A program made the position numbers and the translations under genes. A stretch of DNA of 64,000 nt. It comes from Roseiconus nitratireducens (lineage in GTDB: Bacteria > Planctomycetota > Planctomycetia > Pirellulales > Pirellulaceae). Of this stretch, positions 39,770 through 46,694 are shown piece after piece (the stretch's first letter is position 1; each line of letters starts with the position of its first letter). Under the pieces are notes generated by a model. The model saw nothing but the letters and a program-made list of their open reading frames with translations, did not search any database and was not told the origin of the DNA. The stretch spans positions 62,001-126,000 of the forward strand of contig NZ_VWOX01000018.1 in assembly GCF_008629675.1 (NCBI RefSeq), written 5' to 3'.

Positions 39770-40825
39770 TCATTCGCGAGGATCGATGGTGCAAACGGCC
39801 TGCCCCGTCACCGCATTCGTCGGGATGTTTCCCCACTGTCGGCTATCCACCGACACGGGGACGTTGTCGCCCACGACAAACATCTTTCCCTCCGGAACGG
39901 TCAACGGATAGGCAACCGTCGACGACGCGGTATCGGCGCGGTACTCGATTTCTCGCCACACGCGCAATTGCAATTCGGAAGCGACTTGCGGAGAGACTCG
40001 CAGGGCGATCGGACGCGAGATCGACAGTGCGCCGGCCTCGAGATCCGACCCGTCGTTTCGAGTTGATTCGCGGGCGGCTCGCTGGGAGATTCGCCGTGAT
40101 CCGATCGAGATAGGGATCGGGGCGACGGCAAGATTGCCGGATTGGAAGAAGGCGACGCGTCCTTCATCTGACGCCGACGGCCACCTTCCGTCGGCTTCGG
40201 GCGTGACTTCCAGAACCAAGCGGTCGACCGGGCGCAGGCGGCGGTGCACGTCGGTATTGCTGGGGTAGTCATCCATCACCGCCGTTGGGTGTCCGCCAGA
40301 GTGCGGGTTGGCATAGCAGAACACCAGCCACGGCGATGTCGGATGCGGCCGGCGCCAATCGGTCGGGCCCGATGCCACGGGCACCAACGCGGGTCGGAGA
40401 GGGAAGGCGGAATCATCGCGAGCGGCCAGCAGGTCCTCCAAGCGTTGCTGGTTGACCAGCAGGTGCCCCTCGCGGACTTCCAGGCGGTCGCCCGCCAACG
40501 CGGCGATGCGTTTGATTCGAGCTTTTCCGGCCCAGTCGATTGCGACCACGTCGCCGATCGCCAAAGCGGACGCCGGAGGTTGGACCAGGCACAGGTCGCC
40601 TTCAACCAGTGTCGGTGTCATCGACGCCCCTTTGACCTGGAACACCATCCGGTCCGGCTGCGGACCCCGGCCAGCCCCCCCGTGACCGACGCGGAAGCCG
40701 ATTCGGTATCCGGCCGCGACGCATAGCACCGTGCACAGAGCAACCGCCAGGCACACCGCTACTGCAGCGAACCGAGAAAATCGCGTGGGGGCGGGACGGT
40801 GGGACTTCATGGGCTCCAGATTCAC
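39770..40825 (-). CDS. lepB: Signal peptidase I
   Basis: 351 residues from GTG 40825 (ATG 40810 also possible). One membrane segment (residues 20-45) is followed by the S26 catalytic Ser68 in GASMTPTL and Lys105 in RIKRIAALAGD. Box E, VVGDNVPVSVDSRQWG, lies close to the C-terminus. The roughly 190 residues between the Lys region and box E are much longer than in classical enzymes and include YANPHSGGHP. It cleaves signal peptides on the outer face of the membrane. Divergent from fabH. Confidence 0.88.
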   Translation of the reverse strand: MNLEPMKSHRPAPTRFSRFAAVAVCLAVALCTVLCVAAGYRIGFRVGHGGAGRGPQPDRMVFQVKGASMTPTLVEGDLCLVQPPASALAIGDVVAIDWAGKARIKRIAALAGDRLEVREGHLLVNQQRLEDLLAARDDSAFPLRPALVPVASGPTDWRRPHPTSPWLVFCYANPHSGGHPTAVMDDYPSNTDVHRRLRPVDRLVLEVTPEADGRWPSASDEGRVAFFQSGNLAVAPIPISIGSRRISQRAARESTRNDGSDLEAGALSISRPIALRVSPQVASELQLRVWREIEYRADTASSTVAYPLTVPEGKMFVVGDNVPVSVDSRQWGNIPTNAVTGQAVCTIDPRE

Positions 40826-43329: not shown

Positions 43330-43752
43330 GTCAAAGGGAATGCGGGTTGGCGCTCGCGGTCAACTGCAAACCTTCGTTGCCCAAGAAGAATCGCCGGTTC
43401 GGCGTCGGGCAACTGCGAAGAGAAGGAGTTGTGACACGAGGCGGTCAACGACGAACGCTGCACGATGATCACGCAGCGCGTTTCGAAACCGTCCATGTCA
43501 CACGCCGGCGATCGGGTACCAACTCTGGCAGCCATTTCCCCCTCGGCCAATCCTGCCGGGAGACACAACTGCGTGGTTCATTCGACCCGCCCGCCGGTGT
43601 GCGACGTGTTCCGTACAAACTAGCAAGAAATCACCGCCAGGGGTAGCCGAATCGTCGCCGCCAGCGGCGGGACATTGCAGGCGGAAGCGAGAAAAAAATC
43701 GCGTTTTTTGCGCGCCACCGGCCGGGTTGGTCCCACTACCCTGGTGAAGCCA
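43330..43752. other. Divergent intergenic region, no gene seen
   Basis: 423 bases between rnc and the sigma-factor gene. Short open frames occur but none has family features. Near the right end an AAAAAAATCGCG/TTTTTTGCGCG stretch (43690-43712) could form a weak hairpin. It should carry both promoters. Confidence 0.45.
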
Positions 43753-45876
43753 ATGAGTACACAGCCGCCTCCAGCCGATGAAACGATCCCGTGTGAGATC
43801 ACGGAAGACCCACGCGAGGAGGCGCAGGGTCTGCAAGTTCTCAGTGACGCGGAGCTGTTGGACGGTTGGATCCAGGACCAGCAGCCCCAGGCGTTCGCGG
43901 TTCTGGTGCAGCGTTACAGCCGGATGGTGTTGAGTGTCTGTCGCCGACGCTGTCGAACGCTCAGCGATGCCGACGATGCTTATCAGACGGCTTTCCTGAT
44001 TCTGGCGCACCACGCCCACAAGATTCGTCGACCGGAATGTTTGCCGGGGTGGCTCCAACGGGTTGCCCAGCGCGCCGCCGACGCAACGCTTCACCGCAGC
44101 ACTCCACCACTCGACCCGGATCCTCCCGCCATGAATGATGTGCCGGCAGCGGAAGAGAGCCCGCTGGACGGGATTGCCAGACGACACGAAGCCATCGTGC
44201 TGGACGAGGAACTGGCCGCACTGCCGGAACACTACCGGTCGGCAATCGTCATGCACCTGTATGAAGGCCAGTCGGTGCAACACCTGGCCGAGCAGTTTCA
44301 GACCACGTTGGGCGCCGTGCGCGGCCGTTTGCAACGCGGCAAGCAATTGCTTGCCAGACGTTTGCGGTGTCGTGGCGTCGTTCCCGTGCTGGCGTTCGCT
44401 GCGGCCGGACTCTCCCAATGCACGGCCTCGGAAGCCGCCGCCGCCAGCAGCACTTTTCTGGCCGACATCTCTTCTGGGACGCTGCCGCCGGCTCCCACCG
44501 ATCCTCTTCTCCAACCCCTCGTTTCGAAAGGAGCCCGAATCATGACACCCTGGAACACCCTCGGGTCGCTCGCCGCCGTCGGCACCCTGGCCGCCGTTTT
44601 CCTCTCACCCTCTCCGGGTGACTCGGCCGGAAACGACCAACCATCCCTCCATGTCGATGGGGCTCCGATCCTCGCGCAGGTTCCTCAGCCGGGGCCGGTC
44701 ATTATCCAACCCGTGCCACGCCAACCGACAGCACCGCGACCGGCACCGCCGCAACCGGCACCGCCGCAACCGGCACCGCCACCGAAGGCGTCGCCGCCCG
44801 CTCCGGCGCCCTCCCCTTACGCCGGCGAAGCTCCACCGTCGTCCGGCGATGGCAAGCCGATGGTCTGGGAAAAGCAATACCGTCCGGCGAAACCGACCAG
44901 CCAGTTGGCTCAAGACATTCAACGACGATTGGATGAGCCGGTCAATCTGTCCGTTTCCGCCGCGGTCGGCGATCTGGAGCGGCAACTGGAACAATCGCTG
45001 AGTATGCCGGTGATCATCGACGACCGCGCGATCTCCTATGCAAAGTTGGAGCCGTCGCGATCCGTTTCCGGGGACTTCAGCGACGTGCCGCTTCGCACCG
45101 CACTGAGAAAACTGCTGCGCCCGCTAGGTTTGAAAGCAACGGTGCAAGATGAAGCACTGGTCGTTACCGCCGATCCCGGAGCCCTCGTTCATCAAGGCAT
45201 CGGTGTCTCGCGTTGGATCAACGTCGATGAAACCTTCATGGAACAGTTGGAAGAAACGTTGGCCAAGCAGGTGGATTACGACTTTCAGGAAACGCCGCTT
45301 TCGGAAGCGGTGGCAACCATCTCCCAGGACCTGGGACTTCCTCTGAGCATCGATCGGCGTTCGATGGAAGAGATCGGGTTGGATCAGGACGTCGGCGTGA
45401 CCGCTCAATATCCGTCCATGCCGGCCTACGATTTTTTGTCCTTGATGCTCTCCGATCTGGATTGCACCCTGAACGTGGTGCACAACCAGTTGTTGGTCAG
45501 CACGCTGGAGGCCGCCGAGGATAATCTGCTCAGCCGCGTCTATTGGCTGGAAGGGCTGAACGCGGCAGCCGACTATCAGGACTTCATCCAGCTGATCGAA
45601 TCGAACATCGTGCCGGGCACCTGGGAAGCGTTGGGGGGCAACTCCAGCATCTCACCTTTCGACGCGGCCCGTCCTGCGATCGCGGTGCGGACGACCTACG
45701 GCGTGCATCGCCAAATCGAACGCGTGATCGCGGCGTTTCGGGAAAACTCGTTTGTCCCCGACGACGTTCCCGAACGGGTTCAAGTGCCCGATACGGGCCA
45801 GTCGCAACCGTTCGGCATGGGCGGGGGAATGGGCGGCATGGGCGGCGGCATGGGCGGAGGCGGCGGCTTCTTCTAG
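43753..45876 (+). CDS. ECF sigma factor fused to exported STN-type domains
   Basis: 707 residues from ATG 43753. Residues 35-105 are sigma region 2 (AFAVLVQRYSRMVLSVC, DADDAYQTAFLILAHHA) and 165-220 region 4 (LPEHYRSAIVMHLYEG, LGAVRGRLQRGKQLLARRL). A hydrophobic patch near 230 is followed by a second at 270-282. Residue 264 is a Met preceded by AAAGGAG eight bases upstream, so a second product starting there, with a signal-like N-terminus, is possible. Then a Pro-rich linker (three 15-bp repeats, 44740-44784), two secretin/TonB-N-like segments and a Gly/Met-rich tail. If made as one chain, the sigma domain would be tethered to the membrane. Confidence 0.82.
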   Translation: MSTQPPPADETIPCEITEDPREEAQGLQVLSDAELLDGWIQDQQPQAFAVLVQRYSRMVLSVCRRRCRTLSDADDAYQTAFLILAHHAHKIRRPECLPGWLQRVAQRAADATLHRSTPPLDPDPPAMNDVPAAEESPLDGIARRHEAIVLDEELAALPEHYRSAIVMHLYEGQSVQHLAEQFQTTLGAVRGRLQRGKQLLARRLRCRGVVPVLAFAAAGLSQCTASEAAAASSTFLADISSGTLPPAPTDPLLQPLVSKGARIMTPWNTLGSLAAVGTLAAVFLSPSPGDSAGNDQPSLHVDGAPILAQVPQPGPVIIQPVPRQPTAPRPAPPQPAPPQPAPPPKASPPAPAPSPYAGEAPPSSGDGKPMVWEKQYRPAKPTSQLAQDIQRRLDEPVNLSVSAAVGDLERQLEQSLSMPVIIDDRAISYAKLEPSRSVSGDFSDVPLRTALRKLLRPLGLKATVQDEALVVTADPGALVHQGIGVSRWINVDETFMEQLEETLAKQVDYDFQETPLSEAVATISQDLGLPLSIDRRSMEEIGLDQDVGVTAQYPSMPAYDFLSLMLSDLDCTLNVVHNQLLVSTLEAAEDNLLSRVYWLEGLNAAADYQDFIQLIESNIVPGTWEALGGNSSISPFDAARPAIAVRTTYGVHRQIERVIAAFRENSFVPDDVPERVQVPDTGQSQPFGMGGGMGGMGGGMGGGGGFF

Positions 45877-45910
45877 CCGCAGCGAATCGCTCGGGTGCGA
45901 CGTTGACGCC

Positions 45911-46030
45911 GCCACGCTCGCCAGAGCGTGGAAGACGTTGGGATGTGACGTAGCCACGCTCGCCAGAACGCGGAAGATGTTGGGATGCGACGCCGCCACG
46001 CTCGCCAGAGCGTGGAAGATGTCGCCAAAC
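45911..46030. repeat. Family C: three tandem 42-bp hairpin units
   Basis: Units begin at 45911, 45953 and 45995. Each carries the hairpin CCACGCTCGCCAGAGCGTGG, with some mismatches in the second. They fill the space between the convergent sigma-factor and plsC genes, where they may end transcription. Related single copies lie at 48681-48699 and 58420-58438. Confidence 0.85.
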
Positions 46031-46052
46031 TCTTGTCAGCCTCGCGACACGC

Positions 46053-46694
46053 TCAGGTCCAGTTCGGGATCGGCTTTTCGTTTTCCAACGCCGACATTTC
46101 CTCGCACAACTCGTGCATGAAGGTCTCTCGTTTGCCGGTCCACCGCACGGACCGGCCGATGAAGACGTCACAGAAGAAGGGAACCAGGATCCCTTCTCCC
46201 TTGGGCAGGGACTTCCCCAGGCCGTGCAAAAATACCGGTGTGAACGGCACTTCAGGAAAACGCTTGGCCACGTGCGCGATTCCCGTTTTGAATTCTTCCC
46301 GCACCTCCGGCTTCCCGCGCGTCCCCTCAGGAAAAATGATCAGGATTTGGTTTTCGCGCAGGGCGTTGCAGATGCCGGCCAACGGATCGGTGCGCATGCC
46401 CTTGACTTCTCGCTCCAACGGGATGATTCCGACGATGTGCTGGGAAAACCATGCCATCACCGGATTCCGCAGGAAGTGATCCGCCGCTGCCACTGGATGC
46501 ACGTCCTTCAAACGCTGCATGCCGAACAGGGTCATCAGGACAAACGTGTCCAGGTGGCTGTTGTGGTTGGCGACGACCACCGCCGGGCCTTCGGTCGGCA
46601 GGTTCGCGATCCGTCGGACGTTCAACCCGATCACGAACAGGATCACGGGGCGAACGATGAACAAAAAGAACAGGTAACGCAGCGCAGTGATCAT
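46053..46694 (-). CDS. plsC: 1-acyl-sn-glycerol-3-phosphate acyltransferase
   Basis: 213 residues. It has the acyltransferase motifs NHNSHLD (HxxxxD), the phosphate-binding FPEGTRGKPE and VPFTPVFLHGLG, with a hydrophobic N-terminus. It adds the second acyl chain to make phosphatidic acid. The start lies three bases after the cdsA stop, so it is the third gene of the phospholipid operon. Confidence 0.92.
   Translation of the reverse strand: MITALRYLFFLFIVRPVILFVIGLNVRRIANLPTEGPAVVVANHNSHLDTFVLMTLFGMQRLKDVHPVAAADHFLRNPVMAWFSQHIVGIIPLEREVKGMRTDPLAGICNALRENQILIIFPEGTRGKPEVREEFKTGIAHVAKRFPEVPFTPVFLHGLGKSLPKGEGILVPFFCDVFIGRSVRWTGKRETFMHELCEEMSALENEKPIPNWT

Follow-up and report, generated by a model that had tools for sequence, protein, structure and literature searches.

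Among described systems, a single-protein layout is known from IutY of Pseudomonas putida (group ECF243), a sigma/anti-sigma hybrid that becomes active when Prc and RseP cleave it (PMC8999054, PMC5411451). IutY carries an N-terminal ECF sigma factor, a membrane segment and a periplasmic signalling region. A gene in a 64,000-nucleotide stretch of Roseiconus nitratireducens DNA (contig NZ_VWOX01000018.1, positions 62,001 to 126,000; the whole stretch is referred to as the window, and positions are counted from its first letter) has the same predicted IutY-type layout, its domains being assigned by Pfam and its membrane segment by hydropathy alone. IutY belongs to cell-surface signalling with an outer-membrane receptor, whereas no gene for a TonB-dependent transducer or outer-membrane receptor was found among the seven window neighbours tested. 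In the main text of PMC5411451, IutY is treated with no use of the words ‘internal’ or ‘start codon’.

PupR/FecR-type regulators and the signalling domains of FpvA and PupB share a periplasmic STN fold (PMC7186176), as predicted for the window protein. However, PupR is a stand-alone anti-sigma factor whose single STN follows an all-beta subdomain, while the window protein has repeated STN-like folds fused to the sigma factor. Long C-terminal extensions, as here, are also found in groups ECF48, ECF52 and ECF53, which carry membrane helices, and in the planctomycete WD40-type ECF57 (PMC8999054). Their extension domains are other than those of the window protein, and the parts of PMC8999054 on which we draw mention no internal start.

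An internal start that tunes protein activity is described for the endolysin CTP1L, where its product is the C-terminal part, which associates with the complete protein (PMC4777826). CTP1L is an unrelated phage lysis enzyme with an experimentally shown second product, whereas the second product of the window gene is predicted. Some ECF factors of the planctomycete Tuwongella immobilis were found in detergent-soluble fractions (PMC8567305), which agrees with tethering of such factors, although for the family of the window gene tethering is a prediction. We recognised no report of the site described below in the papers covered on planctomycete ECF extensions, internal starts in sigma genes and STN-linked ECFs, which took in neither the ECF reclassification nor a genome survey of planctomycetes. 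Tethered ECFs and internal starts are known separately; what appears to be new is a putative internal start, under selection, at the point where a tethered sigma factor joins its membrane segment.

Architecture and neighbourhood of the gene

The open reading frame (43753-45876, forward strand, as are all its features given below) encodes 707 amino acids arranged as ECF sigma factor, linker, membrane segment and exported domain. Upstream of the ATG at 43753 the frame continues open to a TTG at 43675, a candidate alternative 5′ start. Sigma region 2 was matched at residues 51-109 (43903-44079; Pfam PF04542, Sigma70_r2, 36.4 bits, cut-off 24) and sigma region 4 at residues 150-200 (44200-44352; PF08281, Sigma70_r4_2, 38.2 bits, cut-off 25.7), and TIGR02937 matched with 57.4 bits against a cut-off of 42.9. 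By these profile matches to regions 2 and 4 the window protein is classed as an ECF sigma factor.

In a Kyte-Doolittle scan, the 17 residues of highest hydrophobicity (residues 269-285, 44557-44607) begin 5 residues past Met 264 and form the predicted membrane segment. An earlier note on this DNA had described a signal-like segment here; the segment is indeed hydrophobic, but it looks more like an anchor than a cleaved signal peptide, and 23 of 32 core members of the family described below have no Lys or Arg in the 12 residues starting with the Met. A Pro-rich linker with 15-bp repeats follows (44722-44797). The full-length model had a pTM of 0.47 with pLDDT below 50 in linker and anchor, and therefore the packing of the domains supports no claim.

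The exported domain (44860-45792) comprises, by model and Foldseek, repeated STN/secretin-N-like folds and a further alpha/beta part. A model of residues 370-680 built from 20 sequences had a mean pLDDT of 86.5. Secretin N-domains led its Foldseek matches (PilQ, E 4.2e-6; EscC, 6.9e-5; GspD, 1.5e-4), and the FpvA signalling domain (7.6e-3) and PupR STN (1.2e-2) came next. Superposition on PupR STN gave a TM of 0.62 over the target and an rmsd of 3.2 over 81 columns. Over the whole length the superposition was poor (TMq about 0.2); the likeness therefore lies in single domains and their repetition. A search of solved structures by sequence returned only E-values of 0.22 and 0.63. Hence the proposal of an ECF factor joined to an exported STN-type protein holds for the sigma part and, in the model, for the STN-type periplasmic signalling fold, but by sequence the Pfam STN matches (PF07660) scored 20.6 bits (residues 432-472) and 21.8 bits, under the cut-off of 28.4.

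Both flanking genes lie on the opposite strand; the upstream one encodes RNase III and the downstream one an acyltransferase. Profile searches with seven neighbour proteins identified these two, a cytidylyltransferase, a FabH-like, a signal-peptidase-like and a sulfatase protein, and left one without a match; the signal-peptidase-like protein (39770-40825, reverse strand) has two matched Peptidase_S26 stretches. Directly after the gene lies a 42-bp repeat array of 2.8 copies (45905-46022). A sigma-70-type scan of 43400-46200 found no internal promoter.

A candidate internal start at codon 264

Codon 264 is an ATG (44542-44544) with AAAGGAG at 44527-44533, leaving 8 nt between them, exactly as the earlier note had stated. 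The 16S tail from the same genus, GGATCACCTCCTTTCT, pairs with AAAGGAG. This candidate Shine-Dalgarno (SD) stretch holds the GGA codon of Gly 260, and upstream of it lies a pyrimidine-rich stretch (codons 253-257, 44509-44523) that is codon-constrained in the family. Initiation at codon 264 would give a predicted second product of 444 amino acids consisting of membrane anchor and exported domain (44542-45876).

The background for such sites was taken from the same genome, using 20 sampled 20-kb stretches (L229-L248) together with the window. SDs of at least 4 letters precede 22 of 77 likely true starts versus 105 of 591 internal ATGs; at 6 letters or more and usable spacing, the class to which the site at codon 264 belongs, the counts are 2/77 and 4/591, respectively. 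SD use at few starts has also been stated for a planctomycete (PMC5397173). Of the 77 likely starts, 6 have a CT-rich hexamer upstream, compared with 9 of the 591 internal ATGs; such hexamers are perhaps an S1-type start feature. Tested against a synonymous-codon null, the window sequence alone was not significant (P = 0.185); the evidence for an internal start therefore comes from the family.

The fusion and its junction in relatives

A genome-contig search with the single window protein confirmed no relative. The family-level search, in which the best five candidates per genome were scored, had hits at E 1e-30 for 49 of the 199 genomes, and the alignment search kept 80 of 102 named loci; the peptide patterns with which named loci were fetched come from the sigma domain, away from the junction. 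In 33 core genes, counting that of the window, the sigma and exported parts remain fused in frame. Named loci with the fused gene come from at least five genera: Stieleria and Rhodopirellula, which are Pirellulaceae, Rubripirellula, Neorhodopirellula and Aporhodopirellula. A survey of relatives, which had been suggested earlier, led us to reject a recent fusion of two neighbours. The idea that two neighbouring genes became one frame finds no support as a recent event, and a few relatives (L047, L048, L053, L080) show the reverse direction, loss or splitting. Core-gene identity is about 50–64% in the sigma half and 31–50% in the exported half; the linker across the fusion varies in length, yet the frame is kept.

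Just before the membrane segment, 32 of the 33 fused core genes, including that of the window, have a Met in the same alignment column or an adjacent one; the exception, L055, has neither Met nor SD at the site. Further counts refer to a core set of 32 that includes the window and leaves out L055, L047, L048, L080 and nine divergent genes. There, the focal Gly codon is GGA in 28 of 32 genes, compared with 23% of other Gly codons, and AGGA, GGAG or GAGG occurs ahead of the focal Met in 24 of 32, compared with 42 of 517 other internal Mets. As to spacing, 19 of 29 Pirellulaceae sites with at least 4 letters have 7 nt (counted as AGGAGG-end equivalent).

Tests holding the protein constant

Can the encoded protein account for this conservation? 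All tests of conservation were devised after the pattern had been seen, and the core family members are related rather than independent samples. Codon constraint was calculated for the 28 of the core 32 genes retained at below 80% identity; the 28 genes of the SD-length test are a similar set obtained with a different filter. Seven of 228 testable columns had z > 4, and four of these seven most constrained columns fall in the 12 codons before Met 264: codons 253 (z 4.4), 256 (4.2), 257 (7.9) and 260 (7.5; 25 of 28 members use GGA). Away from such columns, codon choice is close to saturated (median z 0.58). The highest codon constraint of the gene is at Ser codon 61 (43933-43935; AGC in 18/21, z 8.2), and may reflect the two separate codon boxes of serine.

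SD length was compared with a null of synonymous resampling that preserves the amino acids. An SD of at least 5 letters was present in 11 of 28 core genes, against 2.7 expected (sd 1.4), and none of 1000 resamples reached 11; other Mets of the core genes had one in 20 of 378 cases. Mean SD length was 4.29 observed, 3.11 in the synonymous null and 2.17 at other Mets. We used this pooled test because the energy-based per-sequence synonymous tests were weak when combined (Fisher, P-values 0.04 and 0.24); a paired test on the same energy data was strong (Wilcoxon, 8e-9 and 6e-5). Relative to synonymous shuffles, the mRNA at the focal Met was less structured in 28 of 28 genes (mean z +2.35), while at other internal Mets the mean z was –0.18, with 42 of 84 positive. 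The proposed internal ribosome binding site and start is thus supported across the family by codon constraint, SD length and mRNA folding. A CT-rich stretch, an SD, an ATG or GTG and weak mRNA structure are together the marks of a translation start, and these comparisons indicate that the internal start is kept in the family as DNA, beyond what the protein needs.

The junction in a wider set of ECF genes

From 197 ECF open reading frames, 115 non-duplicates with an extension of at least 60 amino acids were taken; 106 of them had the sigma end at or before residue 340 and a hydrophobicity of at least 1.4, and a redundancy filter left 97, of which 75 have an ATG. SDs of at least 5 letters were found in 42 of the 75 ATG genes, 6 of 12 with GTG only and 4 of 10 with neither; co-occurrence of start codon and SD across the survey was not significant (P = 0.5, ATG versus neither). 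The subset L162-L222, labelled non-Pirellulaceae by locus number and including L220 of Hydrogenedentota and records without a stated phylum, had such SDs in 20 of 39 non-redundant ATG genes against a null of 8.5 (sd 2.1; 0 of 1000 resamples reached 20) and at 20 of 222 other Mets. Its mRNA folding z was +0.67 (27/39 positive, P-value 1.6e-4; other Mets 36/77). In the divergent Pirellulaceae group the SD counts were 7/8 at 4 letters (P = 0.003), 4/8 at 5 (P = 0.14) and 1/8 at 6 (P = 0.85). A second sample of 40 loci consisted mostly of long N-terminal open frames, with 4 ATG and 4 ATG-less genes usable, and gave no support (SD in 2 of 4 ATG genes at 4 letters and in 0 of 4 at 5).

Genes with no ATG in the scanned stretch numbered 26, 22 from the survey and 4 from the second sample. 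A 6-letter SD precedes a GTG in 4 of them against a null of 0.1. SDs of at least 5 letters were present in 5 (null 1.4, P = 0.008), and at 4 letters or more there was no clear excess (10 against 6.5, P = 0.07). This test is post hoc, since it was designed after the GTG sites had been seen, and it pools in the four genes of the second sample. Four distant tethered ECFs without an ATG, L193, L221, L256 and L258, have a GTG (opening VRK, VKK or VKA) after SDs of 5–6 letters.

The junction motif is distributed over codon phases as 22/5/2 and 16/13/1. Lying in several phases, it goes beyond what a protein motif alone would require. By these comparisons the signal recurs at this junction in further ECF genes, most of them planctomycete, but it is weaker there and many genes lack it.

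Natural splits and free-standing relatives

In L047/L161 a stop closes the sigma frame just past region 4, and the exported part, which has a GGA and an ATG of its own, continues in a different frame. L053 has lost most of its sigma part by deletion and its frame is broken, while no sigma match is left in L080. All three retain an open exported frame, and their sites have the order CT-rich stretch, GGA, ATG; dN/dS between the exported parts of L047 and L053 is 0.27. Some of the split loci are draft assemblies, in which assembly error is possible. L043/L048 is cut at the other side: its frame ends just past the membrane segment (386 amino acids) and the exported part is absent, with GAAGGAG standing before a GTG. 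Free-standing relatives of the exported part are found in L050, L052, L054, L078, L079 and L082 and as a second copy in L051; the starts of L050 and L052 resemble export signals by eye.

One gene, probably two products

Because the full-length fusion stays in frame in 33 core genes while the DNA at the internal site carries a selected signal, we conclude that one gene probably gives both a tethered sigma factor and a sensor without sigma. The earlier note had left a choice between a tethered sigma factor, a separate exported protein, or both, and ‘both’ fits best. Translation from the 5′ start would yield a membrane-tethered, inactive sigma factor with its sensor outside, and signal-dependent proteolysis at the membrane would release the sigma domain, in the manner of IutY. 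Initiation at 44542 would yield the same anchored sensor without sigma, and these extra copies would set the sensor:sigma ratio. They could assemble with the full-length protein through the STN-like domains; alternatively, they could compete for ligand or protease. STN-like domains assemble in secretins, and by analogy a similar use here is plausible. Extending this to the phylum, planctomycete tethered ECFs might form a dual-product class in which a selected internal ATG or GTG start at the sigma/membrane junction gives a sigma-free sensor and the ratio is set translationally; we regard the case for and against this extension as evenly balanced.

Few Lys or Arg after the Met in the core genes are unusual for an export signal and count against two products. 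They fit an account that we consider unlikely, namely that the gene gives the full-length tethered sigma factor and nothing else, with ribosomes slowed by the SD-like stretch so that the membrane segment is targeted and with the Met being incidental. SD-like pauses early in membrane-protein translation are described in E. coli (PMC4359368), and both the retention of the frame in all 33 core genes and the non-significant co-occurrence of start codon and SD agree with such a pause. A pause, however, requires neither a Met at fixed spacing, which is kept in 32 of 33 core genes, nor open mRNA, which is seen in 28 of 28. It also sits poorly with GTG after SDs of 5–6 letters in five genes that have no ATG there, and with L053 and L080, which still keep the site with the sigma part largely deleted or absent.

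It is quite improbable that the resemblance to an SD simply follows from a conserved protein motif next to the membrane (QG, EGVLKAM, QEVLRAM) serving sigma release or anchoring. The amino acids do supply part of the SD excess, as the raised synonymous null of the core genes itself shows, but codon choice adds significantly to it, mRNA folding departs from synonymous shuffles, and the motif occupies more than one codon phase. The internal start could also be the main one, with the exported protein as the real product and the sigma half either a relic or under separate control. The existence of free-standing relatives and the loss of sigma in L053 and L080 point that way; nevertheless, we give this reading a very small probability, as the sigma half is the better conserved and the frame is kept across a linker of variable length in 33 core genes.

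Should tethered factors also give rise to a sensor on its own, the annotation, proteomics and knock-outs of these genes may have been misread: a deletion would then take away two proteins at once, and detecting the sensor in the membrane would not imply that sigma is tethered there. With this locus, internal initiation can be tested directly in bacteria in which few starts have an SD (22 of 77 at 4 letters or more). The dual-product arrangement may be common in the phylum; long C-terminal extensions were common among the ECF genes fetched, and the number of sigma region 4 matches per planctomycete genome ranged from 5 to at least 126 in the 39 genomes sampled.
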